From contig NZ_CP141179.1 in the NCBI RefSeq assembly GCF_035599575.1, positions 558,001-622,000 of the forward strand: a stretch of DNA of 64,000 bases. Reading direction: 5' to 3'. How positions within the stretch are numbered: position 1 is the first letter of the stretch; each line of letters starts with the position of its first letter. This document shows, in pieces, positions 44,206-58,007 of this stretch. A program made the translations under genes and the position numbers. The stretch is from Roseovarius sp. Pro17 (GTDB taxonomy: Bacteria; Pseudomonadota; Alphaproteobacteria; Rhodobacterales; Rhodobacteraceae). The notes beneath the pieces are model-generated. The model made no database searches. It saw only the letters and a list, made by a program, of their open reading frames with translations, and was not told where the DNA came from.

Positions 44206-44228
44206 GACCGGTTCGATCCAAAATCATG

Positions 44229-44264
44229 CGGGAGGGGTGGCAACGCCCCTCCCGTTCGTTTATT
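44229..44264 (+). terminator. Rho-independent terminator after the porin gene
   Basis: A perfect nine-base stem (CGGGAGGGG / CCCCTCCCG) with an eight-base loop and a T-rich tail. Confidence 0.85.
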
Positions 44265-44302
44265 TGCGGGTCTGAAATGTAACCTGCATCGAGGCGGGAC
44301 AG

Positions 44303-45181
44303 ATGAGCAAGAAACCGACCAAGAAGAGCGCGCCGCAAAAGCCTGCCGCGCCCAAGGCCAGCATCGTCTGGCTGGCGTCCTATCCGAAATCGGGCAACAC
44401 CTGGACGCGGATATTTCTCGCTAACTATCTGATGAACCCCGAAAAACCGGTGTCGATCAATCAGGTCCACCGCTTTGGCATGGGCGATTCTATCGCCAAG
44501 ACCTACAATATGGTTGCCGCACCCGAGACGCCCGATCTGAGTGATGTCGAGGTGATCTTGCGCCTGCGCGACAAGGTGCTGCGCGGCATTATCGGCAACA
44601 ATGCCGACGTCAATCTGGTCAAAACGCATAACATTCGCGGCGCGGCGTTCGGTACCCAACTGATCCCAGCGCAATATACCCGCTCGGCCGTCTATATCGT
44701 GCGCAATCCCATGGACATGGTGCTGTCCTACGCACGCCATTACGGAATCGAACCCGCCGCCGCCATCGAGGCGATCGGGCGCAGCGACAACGCCAACGCG
44801 ACCGATGGCGCCGCCGTGTGGCAATTCCTTGGTTCGTGGACCGAGCATGTGTGCAGTTGGACCAGCAAATCGCCTTATCCGACCCTCGTGCTGCGCTATG
44901 AGGACATGCTGGACAAGCCTGAGGAGGCCTTTGGCGCGCTGGTCAAGCATCTGGGTGTTCCGCTGGAGGAGGAGAGGCTGCAAAAGGCCATCCGCTTTGC
45001 CAGCTTTGACGAGGTATCGAGCCAGGAAAAGGCCACCGGATTCAAAGAAAACCCCGGCAAAAGCGAGACGTTCTTTACGTCGGGCAAATCGGGCAAGTGG
45101 AAAGAGGCGCTGAGCGATGATCTGATTGAAAAGATGCAGACCGATCACCGCGCCACCATGAAACGGTTCGGATACCTGTGA
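44303..45181 (+). CDS. Sulfotransferase-family protein
   Basis: 292-residue protein that would transfer sulfate from PAPS to an alcohol or sugar. The 5'-phosphosulfate loop is LASYPKSGNTWTR at about residues 26-38 and the 3'-phosphate site is RNPMDMVLSYARH. No signal peptide; the N-terminus is Lys/Ala rich. It is followed after 1 bp by a paralogous gene. The acceptor is unknown. Confidence 0.9.
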   Translation: MSKKPTKKSAPQKPAAPKASIVWLASYPKSGNTWTRIFLANYLMNPEKPVSINQVHRFGMGDSIAKTYNMVAAPETPDLSDVEVILRLRDKVLRGIIGNNADVNLVKTHNIRGAAFGTQLIPAQYTRSAVYIVRNPMDMVLSYARHYGIEPAAAIEAIGRSDNANATDGAAVWQFLGSWTEHVCSWTSKSPYPTLVLRYEDMLDKPEEAFGALVKHLGVPLEEERLQKAIRFASFDEVSSQEKATGFKENPGKSETFFTSGKSGKWKEALSDDLIEKMQTDHRATMKRFGYL

Positions 45182-45182
45182 C

Positions 45183-46052
45183 ATGAGCGGGCTGAAACGC
45201 ATCATCTGGATCGCGTCCTACCCGAAATCGGGCAACACTTGGATGCGCAGCCTGCTGGCGCATTACTTTATGCCCGCCGGACAGGCGCCCGATATCAACA
45301 ACCTGCGCAACTTTACCACCGCCGACGTGCGGCAGGATTTCTATGACGCGGCCCATGGCGGTCCCTACAAAGGCGCGGACCTCAAGGACTGGATGCGCGT
45401 GCGGCCGCAGGCCTTGCGCCTGATCGCGCAGTCGCGCCCCAACCACCACTTCGTCAAGACGCATTGCCAGACCATCCGGGTCGAAGGGCAGGACATCATA
45501 CCGCCCGAAGTGACCGCGGGCGGCATCTACCTGATCCGCAACCCCTTTGACCTTGCGCCCAGTTTCGCGCGCCACCAATCGGCGGATATCGACACGGCGA
45601 TCGAGCGGATGTGCAATCCCGACACGGTGATGGGCACACCCAGCGGCATCTTTGACGTGCTGGGGCGCTGGGATGATCACGTTCATTCCTGGACCAACGC
45701 GCCTGGGCTGAAGCGCCGTGTGATTCGGTATGAGGACCTGCTCAGCAAGCCCGCTCGCGAGATGCGCGGATTGCTGGAAGTGTTCCTTGGCCAGAAGGTG
45801 GACGGGCCGAAACTGGCCAAGGCGGTCAAGGCGACGGCGTTCGCCAACATGCAGAAACAGGAACGCGAACAAGGCTTTACCGAAAAGCCAGAGGGCATGA
45901 CCAGCTTTTTTGCCAAGGGGCAGGCGGGTGTCTGGAAGGACGATCTGACCCCCGCGCAGGTCGCCCGTATCCGCGAGGCATTCCTGCCCGCGCTTGAGCA
46001 GCATTACCCCGAAATGCTGCGCGAGACCGAAGAATTCGCGCGCGGCATCTGA
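45183..46052 (+). CDS. Sulfotransferase-family protein (paralogue)
   Basis: 289 residues with ASYPKSGNTWMR near residue 12 and RNPFDLAPSFARH for the 3'-phosphate site. It is clearly related to the upstream gene, with the same architecture but different acceptor-site regions, so this is a tandem duplication with divergence. Both lie immediately after the porin and not far from the sugar-nucleotide genes. Confidence 0.9.
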   Translation: MSGLKRIIWIASYPKSGNTWMRSLLAHYFMPAGQAPDINNLRNFTTADVRQDFYDAAHGGPYKGADLKDWMRVRPQALRLIAQSRPNHHFVKTHCQTIRVEGQDIIPPEVTAGGIYLIRNPFDLAPSFARHQSADIDTAIERMCNPDTVMGTPSGIFDVLGRWDDHVHSWTNAPGLKRRVIRYEDLLSKPAREMRGLLEVFLGQKVDGPKLAKAVKATAFANMQKQEREQGFTEKPEGMTSFFAKGQAGVWKDDLTPAQVARIREAFLPALEQHYPEMLRETEEFARGI

Positions 46053-46115
46053 CCTATTGGCGTCGCAGCCACAGTGCCTATATCTATGGGTAGCACGAGA
46101 TTAGAGGTGACAGCG

Positions 46116-46703
46116 ATGAACGCGACAGCAAAGACCATTCTTGCGGCGATCGGCCTGATCGGCCTCGCCGCCTGCTCTCCCAACATGCCGGCAGGGCAGG
46201 CCACGCTGGGGCCGACCCCAACGCTGGGTGGTGGTACCTTTACCTCGCCCGGCGGAATCAGCGTAGCGGTGGATGCGCGCAATATCGGCGGGCGCACGGG
46301 CATCTGCGGCGTATGGGCCGAAAGCATTAATCAGTCGGTGATGACCCGCAATTCCGCGCCCAAGATACTCGACAGCGGCGGTGTCACCATGGCGGGCGAG
46401 GCCGTGGCACAAGGCCTCAAATTCCTGCGCCAGGTGAAACCGGCGACATCCTACGCCGGAATGCAGGCCAACTGCATCACGACCGAACGCGCGTGGCGCG
46501 CAGGCGACGAGGCGCGTCCACTCAAGGTGCATTTCCCCCGGCAAATCGTCTTTAACGATCTCGATGGTGGTTTTGGCGAATCCGGCGGCATCCTGATCTG
46601 GTTCCGCCCCGGTGGCCCCGGCGCGCATCCCAGCGACCGCAAGCCATGGTATCATCTAGGTGGTACCAGCGTGTCAGGCGAGATCGCTGCAAGTGATCAA
46701 TAG
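46116..46703 (+). CDS. Lipoprotein of unknown function
   Basis: 195-residue predicted lipoprotein: MNATAKTILAAIGLIGLAAC gives a lipobox L-A-A-C at residues 17-20. The rest has no motif I recognise; one region is rich in Gly. AGAGGTGA lies upstream of the ATG at 46116. Function unknown. Confidence 0.75.
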   Translation: MNATAKTILAAIGLIGLAACSPNMPAGQATLGPTPTLGGGTFTSPGGISVAVDARNIGGRTGICGVWAESINQSVMTRNSAPKILDSGGVTMAGEAVAQGLKFLRQVKPATSYAGMQANCITTERAWRAGDEARPLKVHFPRQIVFNDLDGGFGESGGILIWFRPGGPGAHPSDRKPWYHLGGTSVSGEIAASDQ

Positions 46704-47036
46704 CGCGCGCTTGTGCCGTAGTCGGGGACTGCATGTCATCCGAATATGTGTAACCGGGGGCGTTGATCCAATTACGCGAGCGTCTGGCGGTGGACTGTGT
46801 TCATTCCACTGACGACGCTGCGCATCGCCGGACGGTCCAAGCGCGCACAGCCGAGTTCGTTGCTTGGCCGCGCCTCCGTCAGTCGCAGCGGGTCTTACGG
46901 ACATCTGCGCATCTGAATGAGGCGGGTGACCTTGCGTCTGAATTCGTGGTAGCTGACTCGGGCAGGGGTGGGCATGGACGATCCATTGATCCAGAGTGGC
47001 GGGCAGAATCTGGGGTGTCCAGACGCGCCCGGGTGT
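46704..47036. other. Gene-free stretch before the PLDc_N gene
   Basis: About 330 bp with no convincing reading frame, RNA gene or repeat. The longest open stretches on both strands have unusual composition (Arg/Pro rich) and no ribosome-binding site. The only structure I recognise is the EcfG-type promoter at its right edge. Confidence 0.5.
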
Positions 47037-47062
47037 GGAACCGTAGGGCGCAGAACGGCGTT
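47037..47062 (+). promoter_or_regulatory. EcfG-type (general stress) promoter for PLDc_N-BrkB
   Basis: GGAAC at 47037-47041, 17-bp spacer, CGTT at 47059-47062, in the known EcfG promoter form GGAAC-N16/17-CGTT. It lies 43 bp upstream of the ATG at 47106. Confidence 0.8.
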
Positions 47063-47105
47063 TTGCTCGGATAATCTTATAGAATTTGAAGGATGAGGTG
47101 AATTT

Positions 47106-47297
47106 ATGGTGAACGTGACCGGTGTGGGCAGTTTCATCGTCCTCGTCCTTGACGTTTGGGCGATCGTATCGATTTTCGGCTCGTCCGCATCTACGGGGCG
47201 AAAGGTTCTGTGGATTTTGTTAGTGATCCTGCTGCCGATCCTCGGCTTTATTCTCTGGTTGTTTCTTGGCCCGCGCGCCGCCAAGGCGGGCGGATGA
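47106..47297 (+). CDS. Small membrane protein, PLDc_N type
   Basis: 63 residues with two hydrophobic segments (FIVLVLDVWAIVSIF and LWILLVILLPILGFILWLFLG), matching the PLDc_N family, the membrane-anchor region of phospholipase-D proteins found alone as small stress proteins. GAGG precedes the ATG. Overlaps the BrkB gene by 4 bp; behind an EcfG-type promoter. Confidence 0.82.
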   Translation: MVNVTGVGSFIVLVLDVWAIVSIFGSSASTGRKVLWILLVILLPILGFILWLFLGPRAAKAGG

Positions 47298-48244
47298 GCA
47301 TGCGGGGCGCCGCTGCGTATGGTCGCAGACGGGTGCCCGTCGGCCTCTGGCCCGCCCTCAAGGGGGTGTGGACGCTGATCGGCGAAAAGAACCTGAACCT
47401 CATCGCGTCAGGCATCGGGTTCTTTGGCATTCTCGCTACTTTTCCGGCTATCGCGGCGCTGATCGCGCTCTGGGGATTTGTCGCCGACCCGGCGCTGGTT
47501 GAGGCTCAGGTTTCAGAATTCACGTCCCTTCTGCCTATTGAGGTCGCTGAACTGCTGACTGGCCGCGTGGCCGAATTGGTTGCCGCCGACAGCACGACGC
47601 TGGGTTGGGCGGGGCTGTTGTCGGTCGGGCTGGCACTGTGGTCTGCGCGGGCCGGCATCGCGGCGCTGATGGTGGGGGTCAACGCAGTCTACGGTGAGCG
47701 TAATCGCGGCGGGTTGCGTCATATGTTAGTTGCGTTCGGTCTGACTGGATGCTTGATATTGCTGGCTTTAGCCTGCTTTGCCGCGCTGGTCATCGCCCCA
47801 ATTGTGCTGGCCTTCCTGCCGCTTGGTCCCTTTGCGACATTCATAGCCGAAATGCTACGCTGGGCCGTTGCCGTATCGACAGTGATGCTGGCGCTGGGGC
47901 TGCTGTATCGCTACGGGCCCAACCGAAAGGGTATCGCACGCGCGGGATGGATATCACCGGGCGCGATCACCGCCACCATCCTCTGGGCGCTGGCCACTTG
48001 GGCATTTACGATCTATCTGCAAAATTTCGGCAACTATAACAAGATCTACGGCTCGCTGGGCGCGGTGATTGTGCTGCTGCTGTGGCTCTATATCAGCGCT
48101 TTCGTTTGCCTTCTGGGCGCAGCCCTCAACGCTGAGCTGGAGCTGCAACAGCGCAAGGATACGACGCGCGGCCCGGCCAAGCCAATGGGTCAGCGCGGCG
48201 CGTTCGTGGCAGATAACATGAGCAGGGATTTCAAGCGCGAGTGA
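47294..48244 (+). CDS. YihY/BrkB-family membrane protein
   Basis: 316 residues with six predicted membrane helices, the YihY/UPF0761 pattern (LIASGIGFFGILATFPAIAALIAL; YGSLGAVIVLLLWLYISAFV). Role is unclear; the family is not a ribonuclease despite the old name. Its start at 47294 overlaps the stop of the PLDc_N gene (ATGA), so both are under the EcfG-type promoter at 47037. Confidence 0.9.
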   Translation: MSMRGAAAYGRRRVPVGLWPALKGVWTLIGEKNLNLIASGIGFFGILATFPAIAALIALWGFVADPALVEAQVSEFTSLLPIEVAELLTGRVAELVAADSTTLGWAGLLSVGLALWSARAGIAALMVGVNAVYGERNRGGLRHMLVAFGLTGCLILLALACFAALVIAPIVLAFLPLGPFATFIAEMLRWAVAVSTVMLALGLLYRYGPNRKGIARAGWISPGAITATILWALATWAFTIYLQNFGNYNKIYGSLGAVIVLLLWLYISAFVCLLGAALNAELELQQRKDTTRGPAKPMGQRGAFVADNMSRDFKRE

Positions 48245-48271
48245 CCGGCATCGCTACCGGACACTTGTTTG

Positions 48272-48637
48272 TTAGCGTCGACCGCGCACCGCTTGTGCCG
48301 CGTTTAGGCCGATGATGAACGCTTCGGCCAGCGGCGACATTGTGCCGGGCGCGGGCGGGGACGCGGGATCGCGCAGCAACGCGGCCTCTGCATCGGATTC
48401 GTGACGTTCTTTTGACGCTGCGGCGATGCCGAGCAGGATCAGACCGATCCCGAGGAAAATCCCCGAGATGACTAGGGCCGCGAACAGCGTCGAATATGCC
48501 TCGGCCAAAAGAATCCAGCCTGCTGATGTCAGGAACGCAATCCCGACTAGTAGGAAAACGGCACCCACGGCACGCATCAGCGCGCGCTTTATAGCGCGCG
48601 CTGAGCGGTGTTTGACGGCTGAAATCAGGCCTATCAT
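48272..48637 (-). CDS. Holin-like membrane protein (phage holin family, PF07332-like)
   Basis: 121 residues with two hydrophobic segments (VGAVFLLVGIAFLTSAGWILLAEAY and FAALVISGIFLGIGLILLGIAAA) separated by a short turn, followed by a hydrophilic tail. Resembles the 'phage holin family' proteins often linked to DUF883 genes in bacterial chromosomes. There is no prophage here. It follows DUF883 after 5 bp. Confidence 0.75.
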   Translation of the reverse strand: MIGLISAVKHRSARAIKRALMRAVGAVFLLVGIAFLTSAGWILLAEAYSTLFAALVISGIFLGIGLILLGIAAASKERHESDAEAALLRDPASPPAPGTMSPLAEAFIIGLNAAQAVRGRR

Positions 48638-48642
48638 GCGGA

Positions 48643-48957
48643 TCAGCGCCGGGTTGTGGTCAGGATGCCCACTACAAACCCCAGCGCAGCAGCCATCCCA
48701 AGTGACAGTGCCGGCTTTTCCTGCACGAAATCATGCGCCTGTGCGTTCAGGGCGTTGGCCTGTGTCTGCGCGCTGGAAATAGCGTTGGCACCGCGTGCGC
48801 GGGCCTCTTCCAGACGCTTGTGCGCGGCGTCGGTCAAATTGTCCTTTTGCGCCTTGGCCATCGCGCCGAGCGTATCGGTGATGGTTGAAATATCCTGACG
48901 AAGTGTCGCGATCTGGGCGTTCAGGTCGTCGCTGTCGGGTGATTTGCTCTGAGCCAT
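48643..48957 (-). CDS. DUF883 (ElaB/YqjD-like) protein
   Basis: 104 residues: an amphipathic, Ala/Gln/Asp-rich helical region followed by a single C-terminal membrane helix and a basic tail (ALGFVVGILTTTRR), as in ElaB/YqjD, inner-membrane proteins that associate with ribosomes in stationary phase. An EcfG-type promoter lies 38 bp upstream. Co-transcribed with the holin-like gene. Confidence 0.85.
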   Translation of the reverse strand: MAQSKSPDSDDLNAQIATLRQDISTITDTLGAMAKAQKDNLTDAAHKRLEEARARGANAISSAQTQANALNAQAHDFVQEKPALSLGMAAALGFVVGILTTTRR

Positions 48958-48995
48958 GGAAGTTTCCTTTATTTTCTAACACTATTCTAAGCAGT

Positions 48996-49021
48996 AACGC
49001 ATTCACCTGCATGGCAGTTCC
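48996..49021 (-). promoter_or_regulatory. EcfG-type promoter for DUF883-holin operon
   Basis: On the minus strand GGAAC (49017-49021), 17-bp spacer, CGTT (48996-48999). It fits the EcfG consensus exactly and points at the ATG at 48957. It is back-to-back with the promoter at 49047. Confidence 0.85.
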
Positions 49022-49046
49022 CGACCGCGCCGAATGTTTGCACAGC

Positions 49047-49072
49047 GGAACCGAGCCGGAGGTCGCCGCGTT
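49047..49072 (+). promoter_or_regulatory. EcfG-type promoter for DUF1328 gene
   Basis: GGAAC at 49047-49051, 17-bp spacer, CGTT at 49069-49072, 67 bp before the ATG at 49140. Only 25 bp separate it from the divergent promoter. Confidence 0.85.
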
Positions 49073-49139
49073 TCAGAATTGATATCGGCACAGATCGGTG
49101 TCTGCAACATACCGCATTGTAACCTCAAAGGAGATAGCC

Positions 49140-49301
49140 ATGCTATATTGGGCAATTGTATTCTTTATTGTCGCCGTTGTCTCCGCAATCTTTGGGTTCG
49201 GCGGCATTGCCTCGGCATCGGCGGGGATCGCTCAGATTTTGTTCTTCGTCTTTTTCGTGCTGTTTGCCATCGCGCTGATCGTGCGCGTCGTGCGCAAGTA
49301 G
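49140..49301 (+). CDS. DUF1328-family small membrane protein
   Basis: 53 residues, two hydrophobic helices ([20 protein letters not shown] and [20 protein letters not shown]) and a basic end, the DUF1328/YtjA pattern. AAAGGAG lies at the right distance from the ATG. Behind an EcfG-type promoter, so probably stress induced. The longer reading from 49098 is not needed. Confidence 0.88.
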
Positions 49302-49332
49302 AGATCGTAGACTTTGGTAATTTGAAATGCGA

Positions 49333-49364
49333 AACGCCGCCCTCAACCAAGTGAAAGCGGCGTT
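49333..49364. terminator. Hairpin between DUF1328 and phyR (convergent)
   Basis: AACGCCGC with GCGGCGTT and a 16-base loop. A second perfect palindrome, GAGGGTTAACCCTC at 49376-49389, lies next to it before the phyR stop. The pair probably separates the two converging genes. Confidence 0.65.
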
Positions 49365-49401
49365 CTGATGATCCAGAGGGTTAACCCTCAGACATTGAGG
49401 A

Positions 49402-50232
49402 CTAGGCGTTTTTCAGCGTCTCGGTCGACGAAAAGAACATCGCTTGACCGACAGCCGAACGAACCTGATCTTCTGTGTAGGGCTTGGCGATGACAAAGGC
49501 CGGTTCAGGCTTGTCGCCGGTCAACAGGCGTTCGGGGAAGGCGGTGATAAAGATCACGGGAATTTCGCCGATCTGCTGAAGCAGTGCGTTCACCGCGTCG
49601 ATCCCGGACGAGTTATCGGCCAGTTGGATATCAGCCAGAATGAGGTCCGGCGTCTTCTTCAACCCCAGATCGATCGCTGCATCGGCGGTGCGGCCGATGC
49701 CGGTGACATTGTGGCCGATGGATGTGACGATGCTGTGCAGATCCATGGCGATGATCGCCTCATCCTCAATCACCAGCACATCGCCCGCCATGCCGTTTTC
49801 GATTTCCATGCGGGCGGCGGCAATCAAACCTTCGGCGTCCGATGCGCTGATGTCCATGATCTGACCGATTTCCTGCGGCGAGAACTCCTCGATGGAATTC
49901 AGCAGCAGGGCCTGACGCGTATCGGGGGTCAACTGCCGCATACGGTCCTGCGCAGATGCTTCCAAGTTACGCTTGGCAGACGCGTCACCGGGGTCGGACT
50001 CAGGCGCGCCAGCGCTCTGCCAAACGAGACGAAACGCCCGGAATAGCGCAACGCGAGGTGAGGTGTCTTTGGAATAGGCCTCGCGATCCTCCAGGATCGC
50101 CTCAAGCGTGGCGGCAGCAAAGGCGTCGCCGCTGGACTGACTGCCTGTCAATGCACGGGCATACCGTCTGAGATAGGGAAGGTGGTGTGCGATCTGCTGC
50201 GAAAAATGCAGACTTGAATCAGGATTACCCAT
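49402..50232 (-). CDS. phyR: General stress response regulator PhyR (anti-anti-sigma factor)
   Basis: 276 residues. The N-terminal half (about 1-140) mimics an ECF sigma factor; the C-terminal half (about 150-270) is a receiver with Asp157, phosphoacceptor Asp201 in LILADIQ, Thr230 and Lys250. When phosphorylated, the sigma-like part binds NepR and frees EcfG. The ATG at 50232 follows GGAGC; longer readings add residues of no family. Divergent from nepR-ecfG, the standard alphaproteobacterial arrangement. Confidence 0.96.
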   Translation of the reverse strand: MGNPDSSLHFSQQIAHHLPYLRRYARALTGSQSSGDAFAAATLEAILEDREAYSKDTSPRVALFRAFRLVWQSAGAPESDPGDASAKRNLEASAQDRMRQLTPDTRQALLLNSIEEFSPQEIGQIMDISASDAEGLIAAARMEIENGMAGDVLVIEDEAIIAMDLHSIVTSIGHNVTGIGRTADAAIDLGLKKTPDLILADIQLADNSSGIDAVNALLQQIGEIPVIFITAFPERLLTGDKPEPAFVIAKPYTEDQVRSAVGQAMFFSSTETLKNA

Positions 50233-50296
50233 CGTTGCTCCGTGTTTATTCTGATACTTTGACTGAACGTGGCGAAATTTTTGAACCACGCGATAG

Positions 50297-50321
50297 GGAA
50301 CTAACATGCGACAGGTGCGTT
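50297..50321 (+). promoter_or_regulatory. EcfG-type promoter for nepR-ecfG
   Basis: GGAAC at 50297-50301, 16-bp spacer, CGTT at 50318-50321, about 50-65 bp before nepR. It implies positive autoregulation of EcfG. A weaker minus-strand match (GGAAC at 50324-50328 and TGTT at 50303-50306, 17-bp spacer) overlaps it and could serve phyR. Confidence 0.85.
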
Positions 50322-50370
50322 CAGTTCCGACACATGTGCAAAAAGACGAACCGAAAGCGGTAAATATGGA

Positions 50371-50559
50371 TTGGCAGACGTGAAGATGGGGCGCAAGAGC
50401 GAAGAAACTAAAGATGGCGAAAGAACGCCGGCAAAAGCCTTAAAGCGGGACCAGATCGACGCCAATCTAAAGCGCGTCTATGATGAAATGCTGGAGGACG
50501 ACGTGCCCGATCGCTTTGAGCAATTGTTGCGACAGCTGCGAGAGCAGGACGATAAATGA
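50371..50559 (+). CDS. nepR: Anti-sigma factor NepR
   Basis: About 57-62 residues. The conserved core DANLKRVYDEMLEDDVPDRFEQLLRQL is the NepR helix pair that binds EcfG. The start is open: TTG at 50371 or ATG at 50386; neither has a good ribosome-binding site. It overlaps ecfG by 4 bp, which fits coupled synthesis of sigma and anti-sigma. Confidence 0.9.
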   Translation: MADVKMGRKSEETKDGERTPAKALKRDQIDANLKRVYDEMLEDDVPDRFEQLLRQLREQDDK

Positions 50560-51134
50560 GCTCTGGTAAATCCGATGGTGATGCCGCGCAGATTGATCCG
50601 CGCGATGAAATCATTCTGCATCTCAAACCCATGCGCGCCTTTGCTCTGTCGCTGACGCGTGATGTAGCGCGGGCGGATGATCTGGTGCAGGACACCGTCG
50701 TCAAGGCGTGGACCAATATCGACAAGTTTACCGTCGGCACGAACATGCGCGCGTGGCTGTTCACGATCCTGCGCAACACATTTTATTCCGAGCGTCGCAA
50801 GGCCAAGCGCGAAGTTGCGGATGTCGATGGCGCCATGACCGAGCGTATGGCCGAAAAGCCCGCTCATGACGGTCGCCTTGCCTTGGCCGATTTTCGCCGC
50901 GCGTTTGAGCAGCTTCCGGCGGAGCAGCGCGAGGCGCTGATCCTCGTTGGCGCGCAGGGTTTTGCCTACGAAGAGGCCGCGCGCATGTGCAACTGTGCCG
51001 TCGGCACAGTTAAAAGCCGCGCCAATCGCGGGCGCAAGCGTCTGGCCGAGATGCTGGATATGAAAGAGGATGAGGCGATGGAACTGACCGATCAGGCCAC
51101 CGTCGCCGTAATCAGCCGCAATCCGGGGATGTAG
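50556..51134 (+). CDS. ecfG: ECF sigma factor EcfG (general stress response)
   Basis: 192 residues with region 2 (HLKPMRAFALSLTRDVARADDLVQDTV) and region 4 (LPAEQREALILVGAQGFAYEEAARM, KSRANRGRKRL). It is the sigma factor for GGAAC/CGTT promoters. It starts at the ATGA overlap with nepR and is 4 bp before the histidine kinase gene, giving a complete module. Confidence 0.95.
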   Translation: MSSGKSDGDAAQIDPRDEIILHLKPMRAFALSLTRDVARADDLVQDTVVKAWTNIDKFTVGTNMRAWLFTILRNTFYSERRKAKREVADVDGAMTERMAEKPAHDGRLALADFRRAFEQLPAEQREALILVGAQGFAYEEAARMCNCAVGTVKSRANRGRKRLAEMLDMKEDEAMELTDQATVAVISRNPGM

Positions 51135-51138
51135 TCCC

Positions 51139-52917
51139 GTGCAGGATGTCAGGCCCGACAAAGCAGTTGTTCCCGACGACGGCTGGCAGTCCCTGCACCG
51201 CCGCAACGCGTTGTTGCCGCGCACCGCGCTGATGCTGACGCTGGCCCTTTTGCCGCTGGGGATCATTGCAGTTGCCCAGACCCAAAACGCCATTATCAGC
51301 GCGCGCGACACCTACCGCGCCAGCCTTAGCGCGCAGACGGCGCGCCTCGTCGCGCCCGAACGCGAGGCGATACAGAGCGCGCATGGTATTACTCAAGGCT
51401 TGGCAGACGCGCTAGCCGTGCTGGGCCCCAACGACACGGTATGTTCCGATCTGATGCGTCATACGTCCGCGCGCAGCGGATCGATTGTCTTTCTCGGATT
51501 TATCGACGTGAACCGAAAGTCGGATTGTAACAATTTTGCAAGCTCCTACGATTTCAAGAATATAAAATCCCTCGATCAGGCTATGACACGCGGCTCTCTG
51601 ACGGTCAGCTACAATCCTCTGGGCGGCGCCAGCGGGTTGCCCGTGGTCATCGTCCAACAACCGGTTTTTACGACGCAGGGGGTTTTCAAGGGCGTTGTAA
51701 ACCTGTCGATGCTGTCTGCAAGTATGGTCGCCGAACGCGCTACAGACCCCATGGCTCACAACGCCGTCATCGTGACCTTCAACGAAGAAGGTGAGGTGCT
51801 GACCGCCGATGGCGGACCGGGCGACTACCTCAAGTTCATGCCCGCAGAAACGAAGCTGACCGATCTGATCGGGCAAGGCAGTCAACTGTTTACTGAGGAC
51901 AGCCGCGGCGGCAAGGCGCGCGATTTTGCAGTCGTGCCCATCCTCGAAGGCAAAGCCTATGCGTTGGGCAGTTGGCAACCGGTGCGCCCGCTGGTGCGTG
52001 ATCGCGCGTTCTCGACCTTCACCCTGCTTTTTCCGCTACTGATGTGGCTCATCAGTCTGGTCGTCGCTCTGTTGGCGATCCGTCTACAGGTGATCCGCCC
52101 CATCCGTGTTCTGGGCCGCCAGATGCGCGATTTCGCCGAGGGTCGCCGCACGCTCCGTAGCGAGGCGCTGGATAACGCCCCTACCGAACTGCGCGAAATC
52201 GGCGAGACGTTCAACATAATGGCGCAGAAGGTCATCCGCGACGAGGCCGATCTGGAAAACACGGTGCACGAACGCGACGTGCTGATCAAGGAAGTGCACC
52301 ACCGGGTCAAGAATAACCTTCAGCTGATGTCGTCGATCCTGAACATGCAGGCCCGCAACGCGCCCAATACCGACACGCGCAACGCCCTGCGCAAAGTGCA
52401 GGACCGCCTGACCAGCCTCTCAGCCGTGCATCGCGGTCTGTACGAAACACCACAGGTTAGCCAGGTGCGCGTCGATACGCTGCTGGGTGATATGCTGCGC
52501 CAGCTTGCCACGCTGGGCGAAGGGGACAGCGTGCCCCTCGACGTGGATTTCCAGTTGGAGGGCGTCACGTTAGTCCCTGATCAGGCCGGTCCCCTGGCGA
52601 TGCTGGCTGCCGAAGGGTTCACCAACGCACTGAAATACGGTGCCGCTGGCGCGGATGGGCGCCGTCTTATCCGCGTCCGCCTGCGCCCAGATCCCTCGGG
52701 TCCGGATATGGTCATGTTCGAGATCGCCAACACTGTCATTAGCGACGGCGTGCGCGCCGAAACCGAGCAGGGCCTCGGCCTCAAGCTGATACAGGCGTTC
52801 TGCGCGCAACTCGACTGCCGCATGAAAAGCTGCGAAGAAGAGGCAGGCTGGTATGAGATGCAAATCTGTTTCAAAAAGCAGGAATTCGCGCCCGAGCAGC
52901 ATACGCCACGTGTCTGA
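51139..52917 (+). CDS. Membrane sensor histidine kinase (HWE/HisKA_2 type)
   Basis: 592 residues: membrane helix (about 30-47), a large periplasmic sensor region (about 50-290), second helix (about 295-318), HAMP (about 318-370), then the HisKA_2 box EVHHRVKNNLQLM with phosphoacceptor His388 and an ATPase domain (N-box LAAEGFTNALKYG). GTG start at 51139. It sits directly after ecfG, so it is the likely kinase (PhyK-like) for PhyR. The input signal is unknown. Confidence 0.92.
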   Translation: MQDVRPDKAVVPDDGWQSLHRRNALLPRTALMLTLALLPLGIIAVAQTQNAIISARDTYRASLSAQTARLVAPEREAIQSAHGITQGLADALAVLGPNDTVCSDLMRHTSARSGSIVFLGFIDVNRKSDCNNFASSYDFKNIKSLDQAMTRGSLTVSYNPLGGASGLPVVIVQQPVFTTQGVFKGVVNLSMLSASMVAERATDPMAHNAVIVTFNEEGEVLTADGGPGDYLKFMPAETKLTDLIGQGSQLFTEDSRGGKARDFAVVPILEGKAYALGSWQPVRPLVRDRAFSTFTLLFPLLMWLISLVVALLAIRLQVIRPIRVLGRQMRDFAEGRRTLRSEALDNAPTELREIGETFNIMAQKVIRDEADLENTVHERDVLIKEVHHRVKNNLQLMSSILNMQARNAPNTDTRNALRKVQDRLTSLSAVHRGLYETPQVSQVRVDTLLGDMLRQLATLGEGDSVPLDVDFQLEGVTLVPDQAGPLAMLAAEGFTNALKYGAAGADGRRLIRVRLRPDPSGPDMVMFEIANTVISDGVRAETEQGLGLKLIQAFCAQLDCRMKSCEEEAGWYEMQICFKKQEFAPEQHTPRV

Positions 52918-52953
52918 CGCAATATTGCGTCCAACGTTGTATGAGGGCGCGCC

Positions 52954-53712
52954 GTGACCCTGATGTCACTTCCCGTCCAAGCAGCCCTTTGGGGCCTTGT
53001 CGCCGGAGGTGCGCTGCTGGTTGGCGCCTCCATCGGGTATTTCCTGCGGTTGCCTGCGATCCTCGCGTCGTCGGTCATGGCCTTTGGCATTGGCGTGCTT
53101 ATCTCGGCGCTCGCGTTCGATCTGATGGACGAGTCGTTTGTGATGGGTGGCATTTGGGCCGCGACGGCGGGGTTCGCCATTGGAGGCACGCTTTATGCGC
53201 TGGCGGGCGCCGCGCTGGCGCGGGCGGGCGCGCGGGGGCGCAAGCTGTCGGGTGCCGCGTCCGGAGCCAGCCGGGGCGCTGCGGCCTCGCTGGCTATCGC
53301 CGTCGGCTCGCTGCTGGACGGCATACCCGAAAGCGCGGCGATCGGCATATCGCTGTTGGACGGCGAGGGGGTGGCACTGGTGACAGTACTGGCGATTGTC
53401 GTCTCAAACATTCCCGAAGGTCTCTCTAGTACGATCGGCATGAAAAAGGCGGGCAAATCCGCCACCTATGTTTTCAGCATCTGGATCGCCATCACGCTGG
53501 CCTGTTCGCTGTCGGCCTGGCTGGGCTATTTGGTGATCGGTCAGATGGGGCCGGTGATCATTGCCGCAGCGATTGCCTGCGCGGCGGGGGCGATTTTCGT
53601 CATGCTGATAGACACGATGATTCCCGAAGCTTTCGACGAGATCCACGCGCTATCCGGGCCAATCGCTGCTGTCGGTTTCCTGTTGGCCTTTGCTGCCAGC
53701 CGCTTGCTGTAG
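52954..53712 (+). CDS. ZIP-family metal transporter
   Basis: 252 residues, about eight hydrophobic segments, ZIP/ZupT-like pattern with LDGIPESAAIG and VSNIPEGLSS. In the metal motifs the usual His of TM4 and TM5 are replaced by Asp and Ser, while the Pro-Glu pairs remain, so the metal preference may differ from zinc. GTG start at 52954, 37 bp after the kinase. The neighbouring dps converges with it. Confidence 0.82.
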   Translation: MTLMSLPVQAALWGLVAGGALLVGASIGYFLRLPAILASSVMAFGIGVLISALAFDLMDESFVMGGIWAATAGFAIGGTLYALAGAALARAGARGRKLSGAASGASRGAAASLAIAVGSLLDGIPESAAIGISLLDGEGVALVTVLAIVVSNIPEGLSSTIGMKKAGKSATYVFSIWIAITLACSLSAWLGYLVIGQMGPVIIAAAIACAAGAIFVMLIDTMIPEAFDEIHALSGPIAAVGFLLAFAASRLL

Positions 53713-53726
53713 CGCCACATGGAAAA

Positions 53727-53750
53727 AGGGGCGACCGACTGGCCGCCCCT
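53727..53750. terminator. Bidirectional hairpin between ZIP and dps
   Basis: AGGGGCG / CGCCCCT stem with a ten-base loop; an A run on the left side makes T's for the minus strand. Confidence 0.7.
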
Positions 53751-53787
53751 GAAACTCACTAACAAACAAACCGAAAACTCATGACGC

Positions 53788-54276
53788 CTATTTCTTGGCG
53801 TCGGTGTGGTGCGCGCCGATGAACCAAGCGTCCTTGCTGACGCCCCGGCTGACGGCTGTGTAGAGGTCGGCCGTCTCTTCGTCGCCCGCATCACCGGTTT
53901 CCTTGATGCCCTCGTGCACCAGCGACACGAACTGCACCATCCGTTTTTTCAACTCGTCGATATGCGTGTCCTGATGCACAGCATCGCGTGGATATGCATC
54001 CAGCTTGCCGTTCTTTTCGACGCCATCCAACGTGCCATCGGCAATGCCGCCGAGGATCACGCAGCGCTCGGCAATCGTATCGACATGTTCATCCATCCGG
54101 GCGCGAACCTCGTCCAGAAGTTCGTGAATACCGATAAAGCTGGGGCCTTTGATGTTCCAATGCGCCTGCTTGAGCGCAAGCTGCAACTGGATGCCCGTCG
54201 CGAGGGCAATGTTCAGGTGGCTGATCGACGCTTCGCGCGCGTTGTCGCTGAGGTAGTCTGTGAACTTCTCGGGCAT
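53788..54276 (-). CDS. dps: Dps-family ferritin-like DNA-protection protein
   Basis: 162 residues, assembles as a dodecamer that oxidises and stores iron and protects DNA. Ferroxidase residues His39, His51, Asp55, Asp66 and Glu70 line up with E. coli Dps (KQAHWNIKGPSF, IHELLDEVRARMDEHVD). The ATG at 54276 has GAAAGGA upstream; the extension to 54363 is not part of the family. Expected to be stress induced through the promoter upstream. Confidence 0.96.
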   Translation of the reverse strand: MPEKFTDYLSDNAREASISHLNIALATGIQLQLALKQAHWNIKGPSFIGIHELLDEVRARMDEHVDTIAERCVILGGIADGTLDGVEKNGKLDAYPRDAVHQDTHIDELKKRMVQFVSLVHEGIKETGDAGDEETADLYTAVSRGVSKDAWFIGAHHTDAKK

Positions 54277-54345
54277 GCCGTGGTCCTTTCTGCATATTCC
54301 TTCGGCGCAGAAGCCTGAAAGGCCGCCGCGCCTGTATAAGAGTAA

Positions 54346-54371
54346 TACGCGGCGGGACGGCATCGGGTTCC
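54346..54371 (-). promoter_or_regulatory. Near-consensus EcfG-type promoter for dps
   Basis: GGAAC (54367-54371), 17-bp spacer, CGTA (54346-54349): one mismatch in the -10 from the EcfG form. Position, about 70 bp before the dps ATG, is suitable. Confidence 0.7.
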
Positions 54372-54387
54372 AAACAATGGAGACCGA

Positions 54388-54705
54388 TTAGCGCCCGATC
54401 ATGATCATGCGGAATCGCAACTGATCCAAGATCACGGCGAGGATCAGAAGTGCGCCCAGTAACACCATCTGTATGTAGGAGCTGACCTGCGCCAAATTCA
54501 TGCAGTTCTGAACGAGGATGATGAAGAAAACGCCCAGCACCACATTTTCGACGCGCCCCAGACCGCCACGCAGGCTGACCCCCGCGATCACACAGGCGGT
54601 GATAGATTTCAGCGCGGTGGTGGCGTCTAGGTTGGCCTCACCCGAGTCCACGCGCGGGGGGAGTGGGAGGTCGGTAAGCGCCATACTGAGGGCCAGTTTG
54701 GTCAA
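54388..54705 (-). pseudogene. C-terminal remnant of a sugar ABC transporter permease (RbsC-like)
   Basis: The last 80 or so codons match the end of ribose/xylose-type permeases (ACVIAGVSLRGGLG, NVVLGVFFIILVQNCMNL, LLGALLILAVILDQLR), whereas the preceding residues do not. A whole protein would be about 330 residues, so more than two thirds are gone. No ATPase or binding-protein gene is nearby. Best read as a decayed importer. Confidence 0.75.
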
Positions 54706-54794
54706 TGTTCTGGTGGGTCTATCGTTTCACTCGGCGGATTTTGTGGGCGGGCATTGTGCCCGCCTCATTCTATCTGCGTAGTCGCGCTTCCTTC

Positions 54795-55766
54795 TTAGCT
54801 GAGGGCGCTGCGGATCTTCTCCAGCCGCGCATTGCGCTCGTGCCGGGCATCCAGCGCGCTTGCCATATCCACCTGACGGAACTTGACCGGCGTATTAGGC
54901 TGTAGCTGCCCGATCAGGTCCATGTCGGCGGAAATGATCGCGCCGATGGTGAAATACCCGCCGCCTGACACCGCATCGCGGTGCAGCACGATGGGTTCCG
55001 ATCCGCCGGGGATCTGGATCGAGCCGTAGGAATAGCACCCGTCGACGATGTTGGACGGGTCCGATCCTGCGCCAAACGGCTGCTCGCGCTCTACGAATTC
55101 CATCGGATTGCCGCCGCGAAAGCGGTATCCCATTCGGTCAGCCTCGGGCGCGACCTTCCACTCATCCGCAAAGAACTGCTTTTGCGAGGCGTCCGTCAGA
55201 CGGTGCCAATAGAGGCCGGGCAGAACGCGCAACTCGACCGGCTTGGGCAACTCGGCAAGCAGAGATTGGTCCAGCGTGCGCTCCTTGGCCTTGGCTGTTG
55301 CCTTGCCCACAGGGACGGTATCCCCCGCTGCCAATGCGCGGCCCTCAAAGCCGCCCAAAGCGCCGATGGGATAGGTCGAGCGGCTGCCTAAGGCCGGGGG
55401 CGTGTCGATGCCGCCAGCAATGGCAATATAGATGCGCGCGCCGGTTTTCAGATAGCCAAATTTCAGCGTCTGACCTGCCTTGACGGGGAACGAAGACCAG
55501 CTGCTGCGCTCGTCGCCGTCGACGTAGACCGGCATTTTGGCCCCGGCCACGGCAACGAGTGCATCCTCATTGAACGTCAGTTCCGGCCCCATAAACACCG
55601 CCTCCAGCCCGGCGGCATCCTCAGGATTGCCGACCAGCATGTTGGCAATGCGCATTGCCGCGCGGTCCATCGCGCCGCCTTCGGGGATACCGAGGTGGAA
55701 ATAGCCGGGCCGTCCCAGGTCCTGTATGGTGGTCAAAAGGCCGGGTTTGACAACTTCAAACGTCAT
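54795..55766 (-). CDS. pxpC: PxpC-like carboxyltransferase-domain protein (AHS2)
   Basis: 323 residues: FEVVKPGLLTTIQDLGRPGYFHLGIPEGGAMDRAAMRIAN is the classic 'allophanate hydrolase subunit 2' start; PFGAGSDPSNIVDGCYSYG near the middle. In the canonical 5-oxoprolinase PxpABC this is subunit C; the family is also called biotin-dependent carboxyltransferase. It overlaps pxpB by 11 bp. Given the biotin enzymes in the same operon, a carboxyltransferase function is more likely here. Confidence 0.9.
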   Translation of the reverse strand: MTFEVVKPGLLTTIQDLGRPGYFHLGIPEGGAMDRAAMRIANMLVGNPEDAAGLEAVFMGPELTFNEDALVAVAGAKMPVYVDGDERSSWSSFPVKAGQTLKFGYLKTGARIYIAIAGGIDTPPALGSRSTYPIGALGGFEGRALAAGDTVPVGKATAKAKERTLDQSLLAELPKPVELRVLPGLYWHRLTDASQKQFFADEWKVAPEADRMGYRFRGGNPMEFVEREQPFGAGSDPSNIVDGCYSYGSIQIPGGSEPIVLHRDAVSGGGYFTIGAIISADMDLIGQLQPNTPVKFRQVDMASALDARHERNARLEKIRSALS

Positions 55767-56631
55767 TGAGAGCCTCCATCAGCTTGGCATTGGTGCCGTC
55801 CATGTCGGTGTTGAAATCTTCCAGATCAAAGGTCACCTCGGCGATGCGCGGTGTATAGGTGCCATCCTCGACGCCCTTGAGAATGCGGTCGTATTCCTCG
55901 CGGTCTATCGGTTTCCATTTGACGATGTCGCCGGGTTTAAAGAAGACCATGAAGTCCTTGAGGTAGCTCACCTTTTGGTCTGCATCAAAGATCGTCATCG
56001 GCGTGATGCCAAACATCTGATATCCACCCGCGCCGCGCACGGAATAGACGCAGGAAAAGCACCCGCCATAGCCGACCGTCTGTTTCGGCGTGTCGGTGCG
56101 TGGCTTGAGGTATTTGGGTACCTCGATCTGCTTGTCGCGCTCGACCAACTGGTAGAGGAACGGCAGGCCCGACACGAACCCAACCATCGACACGAACCAA
56201 GGCGCGCTGTGATGCGCCTCGATGAATGCCTCGACACTGTCGTAGCCGTTGATGCGCGCGGCATAGTCCAGATCGGTTCCGCTAGGGTCCTGGTGGCGCT
56301 CGCGAAAGCGCATGACACATTCGTGCGTCCACGGATCCTGGTAGAAAACCGGCACCTCGACGATGCGCGTTTCCAGCCGCTTTTCGGCGTTGATCGCCTT
56401 TTTCTCAAGTTCCTTGAGCTTGGCCATCATGTCCTCGGGGGCGATGACATCCGGGTCGTAGCGCACCTGAAACGATGCGTTGGCCGGGCAGATTTCGCGC
56501 ACGCCGTCGATATTGGCCTCGCGCGCCGCATTGCTCATGGCGAGGGATTTAAAGAACGCGTCCAGCGACATTTCCTCGTCCATTTCGACAAAGATATGCT
56601 CGTCGCCGCCGTATGAATACCGTGTCTTCAC
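55756..56631 (-). CDS. pxpB: PxpB-like carboxyltransferase-domain protein (AHS1), with N-terminal extension
   Basis: 291 residues starting with GTG at 56631, where AGGAGGAGC is in place and the start overlaps the biotin-carboxylase stop (GTGA). The C-terminal 200 residues fit the AHS1/KipI family (GFVSGLPFLYQLVE, VRGAGGYQMFGITPM). The first 90 or so residues are additional, and the family's usual GGQTGIYP region is replaced by GGCFSCVYS with two Cys. This looks like a distinct subfamily. Confidence 0.85.
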   Translation of the reverse strand: MKTRYSYGGDEHIFVEMDEEMSLDAFFKSLAMSNAAREANIDGVREICPANASFQVRYDPDVIAPEDMMAKLKELEKKAINAEKRLETRIVEVPVFYQDPWTHECVMRFRERHQDPSGTDLDYAARINGYDSVEAFIEAHHSAPWFVSMVGFVSGLPFLYQLVERDKQIEVPKYLKPRTDTPKQTVGYGGCFSCVYSVRGAGGYQMFGITPMTIFDADQKVSYLKDFMVFFKPGDIVKWKPIDREEYDRILKGVEDGTYTPRIAEVTFDLEDFNTDMDGTNAKLMEALNDV

Positions 56632-58007
56632 GATGCTCCTCCTGTCTGTTCGGTGAGGTTGCCCGCATCCAGCCACGGCTCAAGCCATTGGGTATGAATG
56701 CGGCCCGCGCGCAGGTCGGCGGATTGCGCCAACGCCTTGTGCAGCGGGATGGTGGTTTTGAGGCCTTCGATTTCAATGGCATCCAGCGCGCCTGCCATCT
56801 TGTCTATCGCTGCCTCGCGGGTATCTGCATGCACAATCAGCTTGCCGATGAGCGAGTCGTAAAACGGCGGGATCTGGTAGCCCTCGTAGAGGAAGTGATC
56901 GATGCGGATGCCGTCGGATTCCGGCAGGTTCAACGCAGCAACTTTGCCGGGGAAGGGCATGAATTTCTTCAGTGGATCTTCGGCGTTTAGCCGCACCTCA
57001 ATGGCATGGCCGGTCAGCGTGATCTGATCCTGCGTGACGGGCAGCGCCTCGCCCCCCGCCACACGCAGCATCAGGGCAACCAGATCGAGGCCGGTAATCA
57101 TCTCGGTCACGGGATGTTCGACCTGAATGCGCGTGTTCATCTCGATGAAGTAGAACGCGTCGGCCTTGGCGTCATAAAGGTACTCGACCGTTCCAGCGCC
57201 ACGATATTCGACCGCCTCGGCCAGATCGACTGCGGCATTGCACATCGACGCGCGCGTCGCTTCGGGCAGGCCAAAGGCCGGTGCCTCTTCCCATACCTTT
57301 TGGCGGCGGCGTTGGAGCGAGCATTCACGCTCAAAACAATGCACGGCGTTTGTGCCGTCGCCCATGATCTGCACTTCGATATGGCGGGGCTGGATGATGA
57401 CTTTTTCGATGTAGATGCCGCCATCGCCAAACGCGGCCTCGGCCTCCTGCCGGGCTTGGGGCGCAAATTTGGCCAGTTCCTCGGGCGTCTCGGCGATGCG
57501 GATGCCGCGCCCGCCGCCGCCTGCGCTGGCCTTGATCATCACTGGGTAGCCGATGCGTTTGGCTATTTCCGCTGCCTCGTCCATGTCGTCGACGCGCCCG
57601 TCCGATCCGGGGACTACCGGCACGCCCGCCGAATGGGCGGCGCGGCGGGCGGATACCTTGTCGCCCATGCTTTGGATCGTGTCGGCGGACGGTCCGACAA
57701 AGATCATGCCGGCCTCCGTGACTGCGCGCGCGAAACGCGGGCTTTCAGCGAGGAAGCCGTAGCCGGGATGCACCGCGTCCGCGCCCGATTCCTTGGCCGC
57801 CTGAACGACGCCATCCACGTCCAGATATGATTTCGCGGCCTGCGGTGGGCCGATGCACACCGCCTCATCCGCCAGGCGTACGGCCAGCATGTCTGCATCC
57901 GCCTCGGAATGGGCCTGAATGGTGTGAATGCCAAGGGACTGGGCCGCGCGCACGATGCGCACGGCGATTTCGCCCCGGTTCGCGATGAATAAGCGCTGAA
58001 TGCTCAT
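56628..58007 (-). CDS. Biotin carboxylase subunit
   Basis: 459 residues, the AccC length: ATP-grasp core with KASAGGGGRGI, the carboxyphosphate region and EMNTRIQVEHPVTEMITG. It carboxylates biotin on the adjacent carrier with ATP and bicarbonate. It lies 1 bp from the carrier gene and overlaps pxpB. It may be the acetyl-CoA carboxylase AccC, but its placement in the Pxp-type operon suggests a dedicated copy. Confidence 0.94.
   Translation of the reverse strand: MSIQRLFIANRGEIAVRIVRAAQSLGIHTIQAHSEADADMLAVRLADEAVCIGPPQAAKSYLDVDGVVQAAKESGADAVHPGYGFLAESPRFARAVTEAGMIFVGPSADTIQSMGDKVSARRAAHSAGVPVVPGSDGRVDDMDEAAEIAKRIGYPVMIKASAGGGGRGIRIAETPEELAKFAPQARQEAEAAFGDGGIYIEKVIIQPRHIEVQIMGDGTNAVHCFERECSLQRRRQKVWEEAPAFGLPEATRASMCNAAVDLAEAVEYRGAGTVEYLYDAKADAFYFIEMNTRIQVEHPVTEMITGLDLVALMLRVAGGEALPVTQDQITLTGHAIEVRLNAEDPLKKFMPFPGKVAALNLPESDGIRIDHFLYEGYQIPPFYDSLIGKLIVHADTREAAIDKMAGALDAIEIEGLKTTIPLHKALAQSADLRAGRIHTQWLEPWLDAGNLTEQTGGAS

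Follow-up and report, generated by a model that had tools for sequence, protein, structure and literature searches.

We analyzed a stretch of 64,000 nucleotides from Roseovarius sp. Pro17 (the window), in which the general stress regulators phyR, nepR and ecfG and a sensor histidine kinase gene lie together, and within it a 32-bp mirror element in the gap between phyR and nepR that reads as two interleaved EcfG-type promoters, one in each direction. An earlier note on this DNA had grouped the four genes, and Pfam domains bear this out. PhyR has a sigma-like N-terminal domain and a receiver domain at the C-terminus, and nepR adjoins the gene for an extracytoplasmic function (ECF) sigma factor and is divergent from phyR, both as expected of a PhyR-NepR-EcfG system. 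A HisKA_2 kinase gene adjoins ecfG, and the feeding of PhyR by this kinase is only putative. The ecfG gene had four other matches in the same genome, each at most 34% identical. The identities proposed for the neighboring genes also held by Pfam for PLDc_N, BrkB, the holin-like protein, DUF1328 and dps, but the DUF883 match fell below the cut-off. The features are collected in Table 1.

Table 1. Genes and EcfG-type sites around phyR, in window positions.
Feature	Position	Strand	Basis or remark
EcfG-type site before PLDc_N-BrkB	47037..47062	+	exact; site before PLDc_N in G029 too
PLDc_N small protein	47106..47297	+	Pfam
BrkB family membrane protein	47294..48244	+	Pfam; start overlaps PLDc_N stop
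Holin-superfamily III-like protein	48272..48637	-	Pfam
DUF883-like protein	48643..48957	-	Pfam 24.1 bits, under cut-off 27
EcfG-type site before DUF883-holin-like	48996..49021	-	exact; site before DUF883 in G029 too
EcfG-type site before DUF1328	49047..49072	+	exact; site before DUF1328 in G029 too
DUF1328 small membrane protein	49140..49301	+	Pfam
phyR, anti-anti-sigma response regulator	49402..50232	-	Pfam PhyR_sigma2, PhyR_sigma-like, Response_reg
Interleaved (mirror) EcfG-type promoter pair, 32 bp, common to phyR (-) and nepR-ecfG (+)	50297..50328	.	sequence; family conservation
nepR-ecfG half	50297..50321	+	-35 GGAAC 50297-50301, N16, -10 CGTT 50318-50321
phyR half	50303..50328	-	-35 GGAAC 50324-50328, N17, -10 TGTT 50303-50306
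nepR, anti-sigma factor	50371..50559	+	Pfam NepR; start TTG 50371, GTG 50380 or ATG 50386
ecfG, ECF sigma factor	50556..51134	+	Pfam Sigma70_r2, Sigma70_r4_2
Sensor histidine kinase	51139..52917	+	Pfam HAMP, HisKA_2
dps (ferritin-like)	53788..54276	-	Pfam ferritin-like domain
EcfG-like site before dps	54346..54371	-	GGAAC-N17-CGTA, one mismatch

The plus strand of the mirror element reads GGAACTAACATGCGACAGGTGCGTTCAGTTCC, and the minus strand reads GGAACTGAACGCACCTGTCGCATGTTAGTTCC, which is GGAAC-N17-TGTT towards phyR. Each -10 is only one or two bases away from the -35 of the opposite promoter. Both core promoters thus lie on the same DNA, as in a bidirectional promoter in the general sense, and the 11 bp between the two -10s set the element apart from promoters that share one symmetric -10 in the sigma70 sense. 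In the accessible text of the papers, the EcfG consensus is given as GAAC-N16,17-C/GGTT (PMC4814048) and as GGAAC-N16-CGTT (PMC3892343). The nepR half fits the published consensus exactly, and the phyR half is a TGTT variant; TGTT lies outside C/GGTT and is covered by the S. melonis motif GGAAC-N17-20-GTT, as quoted from PMC6599016 in part. The earlier note had placed EcfG-type promoters in front of the system's own regulators: its site before nepR-ecfG stands, but the partner on the phyR side, and with it the interleaving of both into a single element, had been missed. The distance from this site to nepR is 49 nt to the TTG at 50371 or 64 nt to the ATG at 50386. In the whole genome, GGAAC-N20-24-GTTCC occurs at nine places, and by inspection only the copy at phyR has -10s in both halves.

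Conservation of the element was determined across the family with a single genome for each genus (248 genomes), PhyR being called at E ≤1e-40. PhyR was present in 112 of the 248 genera and in 101 of the 215 good genomes, so that the general stress response is patchy in the family. There were 119 PhyR matches, 117 of which were fetched (G531, at a contig end, and a second G559 contig with only the C-terminus were left out), and after L312, which lacks the N-terminus, was dropped, 116 usable loci from 110 genomes remained. The results show that GGAAC-N20-24-GTTCC lies upstream of phyR in 99 of these 116 loci (97 genomes, tallied by hand), whereas dinucleotide-shuffled upstream regions gave a mean of 0.36 elements and a maximum of 2 in 50 rounds. 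The element was found in 99 of the 109 loci in which a divergent ecfG was found in the scanned stretches of 1.1-3.8 kb, and in none of the seven others, two of which have a divergent nepR. Its length is 31-33 bp in 98 of the 99 cases; 49 elements have an exact CGTT both ways, 36 have one mismatch in the two -10s taken together and 14 have two. A strict pattern, GGAACNNAACN{9,12}GTTNNGTTCC, matched 36 of the 248 genomes at one site each, and its backwards-read control matched one genome. All 30 of the strict matches that were fetched lie between phyR and ecfG or nepR, and the other six are 43-78 bp from phyR by their coordinates. Within the genus, the element is present at 20 of 20 full-length phyR loci, our own included, with [CT]GTT at the right spacing both ways in 16 of them, and in a set of named records GGAAC-N20-25-GTTCC was upstream of phyR in 64 of 80 loci. 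Taken together, these data show a mirror element conserved at phyR in most sampled relatives that have these genes, its strict form occurring once per genome.

At 50366-50383 there is also a mini open reading frame (ORF), ATG GAT TGG CAG ACG TGA, the stop of which overlaps a GTG at which nepR may start. That its product, MDWQT, is a leader peptide conserved at this place was considered and dropped: among the 99 survey loci only that of the window has it, and it recurs, with the same 18 bases, in G029 (L141), the congener whose PhyR comes closest to ours (85%).

We asked how the element differs from ordinary EcfG sites. The 300 bp upstream of phyR hold 94 exact sites, and at 85 of them GTTCC follows CGTT by 1-2 nt, compared with none of 199 exact sites elsewhere within 8 kb; likewise, AAC follows GGAAC by 1-3 nt at 85 of the 94 sites and at 12 of the 199 others. 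Therefore, ordinary EcfG promoters do not include the mirrored half. Among the 99 survey elements every exact CGTT, on either strand, is separated from its GGAAC by 16 or 17 bases, and the innermost bases are unconserved and carry almost no information. A palindrome of this kind could instead be an operator for a dimeric regulator that overlaps a single EcfG promoter, the second half being operator symmetry. Inverted-repeat arms of up to 12 bp in some genera would suit such an operator, and it is general knowledge that divergent genes often share one. However, the most conserved letters of the arms are those of the EcfG -35 and the opposite -10 at their fixed promoter spacing, the middle is nearly empty of information, and none of the 199 other sites has the mirrored -35 behind its CGTT. 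Moreover, the survey of 248 family genomes found the strict element at phyR alone and so gave no sign of a regulon under such an operator. We regard an operator as an improbable explanation. That the inverted repeat forms a hairpin, a terminator or a cruciform is very improbable: arms of 12 bp around an 8-bp middle, as in some genera, speak for it, but the element lies between divergent genes, the letters of its arms are those of promoters and are spaced as in promoters, the window shows no T tract after it on either side, and positions 44000-57000 gave no Rfam match at the gathering threshold.

Outside the family, 24 phyR loci were inspected, 14 of which have a divergent ecfG in the stretch. 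Sites in both directions were found in three of the 24, arranged back-to-back with offsets of 6, 8 and 40 bp, and one of the three, L164, is near-interleaved. In the family of L164, the pattern GGAACNAACGN{12,16}TTNGTTCC matched six of seven genomes (one of two genera), in all six cases between phyR and ecfG. The element of these six carriers (G204, G664, G301, G077, G665 and G666; L314-L319) is 32 bp long, its middle is partly conserved, and its phyR-side -10 is CATT in five of the six.

On this evidence we consider it probable that 50297-50328 is a bidirectional EcfG promoter that would work in one orientation at a time and would couple phyR to nepR-ecfG. The competing idea is that only one direction is used, with phyR served by another promoter and the opposite half a relic or a by-product. 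In its favor, 37 of the 99 survey elements keep an exact CGTT on a single side. However, 71 of the 99 elements have an exact CGTT towards phyR and 64 have one towards nepR, and the single-side cases, 22 on the phyR side and 15 on the nepR side, show no significant bias (p 0.32). The literature, in the portions available to us, also speaks for two active directions: phyR and nepR-ecfG mostly point away from each other, and in most Alphaproteobacteria each of the two units depends on EcfG (PMC4814048, PMC8103513); and in S. meliloti both rsiA1 and rsiB1 depend on rpoE2, with mapped starts (PMC3616915). Use of a single direction thus seems unlikely to us. For R. etli, EcfG1 dependence is stated for both phyR and ecfG1 (PMC3892343).

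Several observations nevertheless weigh against a two-way coupling promoter, the first two of which also suit a single used direction. The phyR-side -10 of the window is TGTT with N17. In R. sphaeroides, according to the part of the published work at hand, ecfG mRNA rises under membrane stress only, and phyR and ecfG mRNAs answer different stresses; this separate induction argues against tight coupling there. The exact element is absent from 17 of the 116 usable loci, ten of which have a divergent ecfG, although degenerate versions lie at the same place in some of the 17, most clearly in L221 and L240. None of the nine Paracoccus rows of the named set (L073, L102, L110, L113, L117, L118, L128, L129 and L131) has it, with phyR and ecfG divergent there, and it was found in neither of the two Rubellimicrobium rows. 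Because of these 17 loci and the nine Paracoccus rows, the element is not essential for a general stress system. The strict pattern misses the window's own element because on one side a single base separates -10 from -35, and a class-wide search with it (385 genomes, five from the family, our own genome included) gave one match, in G240, away from phyR. Finally, at E. coli bidirectional promoters with basal activity, transcription is too low for competition, as far as the accessible text of PMC12825309 goes; there, opposed promoters compete only when they are highly active. EcfG promoters close to the consensus would, under stress, fit this high-activity case.

The G240 match (L313 5087-5118; L145) belongs to another family and lies upstream of a single-domain receiver gene; it may be a chance event. 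Another genome, G551, in which the phyR half is decayed, was considered as R. sphaeroides-like and as an explanation of the published asymmetry, and this was dropped, as by eye there is no Crp/Fnr-like gene downstream of phyR.

The other EcfG-type sites of the window surround the mirror element. The earlier note had listed four exact GGAAC-N16/17-CGTT sites close before gene starts and a site with a single mismatch before dps. All four were confirmed, and they are the only exact sites in the 64-kb window, where 0.88 are expected by chance and none of 100 shuffles reached four; the dps site has CGTA for CGTT. The gaps to the gene starts are 43 nt for PLDc_N, 38 for DUF883, 67 for DUF1328 and 69 for dps. 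The 4.24-Mb genome has 71 exact sites, compared with 108 for the backwards-read motif. Genome-wide enrichment of this short motif was thus rejected and, because the count is not above that of the control, the motif alone does not define a regulon. Fifty-one of the 71 sites lie inside tiled ORFs, a crude tiling that swallows two of the four window sites as well. In the comparison of densities that the earlier note had called for, there is no enrichment in the genome as a whole, but the local cluster is improbable by chance, since four of 71 random points fell within 3,285 bp anywhere in the genome in only 34 of 20,000 simulations. A short, degenerate motif without genome-wide excess is what chance or base composition would give, but these simulations, the recurrence of the enrichment around phyR in 81 loci and sites before the same genes in G029 make chance a very improbable account of the clustering.

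In these 81 loci (80 named records and L141 from G029), the density of exact sites was highest in the 300 bp upstream of phyR (94 sites, 3.9 per kb), with 0.84 per kb at +0.9 to 1.5 kb. Eight of the remaining ten bins to 8 kb had 0.10-0.25 per kb; the two low bins, 0.014 and 0.039 per kb, lie just past the gap on the nepR-ecfG-kinase side. Beyond 8 kb the density was 0.04-0.06 per kb, and the reversed-motif control gave 0.008-0.045 per kb in every bin. An ORF of at least 45 aa starts 10-200 nt downstream of 302 of 309 sites, an easy criterion, as the ORFs are uncurated and some are out of frame. Of ten downstream representatives, eight were compared with Pfam and each of these matched: AI-2E transporter, DUF2383, PRC-barrel, CsbD, PLD, DUF4112, ExoD and pyridoxamine-oxidase-like, the last two each from a cluster of three loci. 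Families that recur downstream include AI-2E transporter, DUF2383, PRC-barrel, CsbD, PLD, DUF4112 and DUF883.

The gene order PLDc_N, BrkB, holin-like, DUF883, DUF1328, phyR, nepR, ecfG and kinase is kept in G029, with EcfG-type sites before PLDc_N, DUF883 and DUF1328 and within the phyR/nepR gap. In G029, dps (80% identical) is preceded by GGAAC-N16-CATT, a site with one mismatch that starts 88 nt before the gene. A putative EcfG promoter thus precedes dps in both genomes, in favor of the earlier note, but both sites deviate from the -10 consensus. The proposal that the regulon is partly clustered with its regulators appears largely right, judging from the enrichment near phyR in the 81 loci and from the block kept in G029. 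Because sites are enriched around phyR across these loci, the clustering of EcfG-type sites, taken as predicted promoters, with their own regulators is a family trait, with gene content varying. It offers a quick route to predicting stress genes in this bacterial family.

Some further observations concern the island and its surroundings. The sites at 48996-49021 and 49047-49072 stand back-to-back between DUF883 and DUF1328 with 25 bp separating the -35s, and G029 is arranged likewise (L141, 9629 minus and 9658 plus). Next to the island, at 44303-46052, are two genes for sulfotransferases in tandem (Pfam Sulfotransfer_1). The kinase gene is followed at 52954-53712 by an ORF of 252 aa that had no Pfam match and no relative in the 19.5 kb around the G029 island. 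Far from the island, at about 3.84 Mb and 1.2 Mb of the same genome (L350, L027), EcfG-type sites precede genes that by resemblance are PLD-like, DUF4112-like and AI-2E-transporter-like, and relatives of these genes lie near phyR in other genera.

As for the inheritance of the island, full-length PhyR was found in 20 of 36 genus genomes, our own included. In the PhyR tree, the sequences of the window and G029 group with Roseitranquillus (98/81) and next with Oceaniglobus, Palleronia and a Rhodobacterales metagenome-assembled genome (99/95), and the main group of congeners lies apart. Because it groups with other genera and not with most congeners, this suggests that the phyR of the window and G029 was acquired by transfer or replacement. 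The earlier note had said that the clustering allows joint inheritance; the phyR tree, taken alone, places PhyR outside most congeners, which fits transfer or replacement. Only the tree placement was used, because the count of at least eight genus-label changes is inflated by four unlabelled rows: L074 and L115, which are identical to genus rows, and L108 and L138, which are recorded as Roseovarius.

The bidirectional EcfG promoter that we favor would work as follows. Its rightward promoter, GGAAC-N16-CGTT, would drive nepR-ecfG and probably the kinase gene behind it, and its leftward promoter, GGAAC-N17-TGTT, would drive phyR. At ECF promoters, transcription starts about 6-8 bases past the -10; the predicted starts therefore fall in or next to the opposite -35. 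Because both promoters occupy the same bases, they should exclude each other: a polymerase that is bound, or is melting the DNA, in one orientation would block the other. The partner switch itself is known from other Alphaproteobacteria. Under stress, PhyR would be phosphorylated and would titrate NepR, and the EcfG thus freed would fire the element in both directions, one at a time. The anti-anti-sigma factor PhyR and the anti-sigma/sigma pair would in this way be amplified together. How good one half is relative to the other would set the ratio of phyR to nepR-ecfG, and the single shared binding site would limit the total output. The nearby stress genes with one-way EcfG sites would form an island around the element. 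EcfG binding, the two transcripts, mutual exclusion and control of the ratio are all what we infer from the layout and conservation of the site, and the element perhaps keeps the opposing parts of the switch in proportion.

A bolder version, which we put forward tentatively and hold to be somewhat less likely than its negation, is that the element acts as a governor of the partner switch. Each firing would give either a phyR or a nepR-ecfG mRNA, which would fix the ratio, hold the positive feedback to a single polymerase flux and reduce noise between cells. The element would for this reason have been kept across the family and, in at least one further family, either kept or evolved anew. Partner switches hinge on the ratio of sigma, anti-sigma and anti-anti-sigma factors, and two units that compete for one polymerase would, if this is true, be a physical way to hold it. 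The natural variants, with one half weaker, with back-to-back sites or with the element lost, as in the Paracoccus rows, are ready-made experiments.

The window has much in common with the alphaproteobacterial general stress locus as far as the accessible literature describes it: the genes are the same, their order is divergent, the kinase gene is beside ecfG, and there is an EcfG-type promoter both ways. Co-regulation of the two units has been said probably to maintain the stoichiometry of the partner switch (PMC4814048, in the text available). Divergent, autoregulated promoters are already known in this system. In the published descriptions, however, these are the promoters of two units, whereas the window has one interleaved 32-bp mirror element, and in the open-licence literature, as far as its accessible text goes and including PMC7083833 and PMC6599016, we found no report of an interleaved EcfG promoter; this form is apparently unreported there. 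The back-to-back pair between DUF883 and DUF1328 resembles the element in its motif, in the sigma factor expected and in serving divergent small stress genes, but it consists of separate sites with no promoter bases in common. Another close likeness is to the bidirectional sigma70 promoters described in E. coli and in other prokaryotes by Warman, Grainger and colleagues, which share a symmetric -10 and at which simultaneous binding is sterically excluded; their starts mostly lie 18 bp apart, in other cases 10 or 23 bp (PMC12825309, as far as its accessible text shows). In the mirror element, by contrast, the ECF -35 and -10 are both mirrored, the -10s do not overlap, the predicted starts would be about 30 bp apart, and conservation is at one locus across the family. 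If our reading is correct, the element widens the range of bidirectional promoters, from those with a shared sigma70 -10 to one in which an ECF promoter is mirrored in full.

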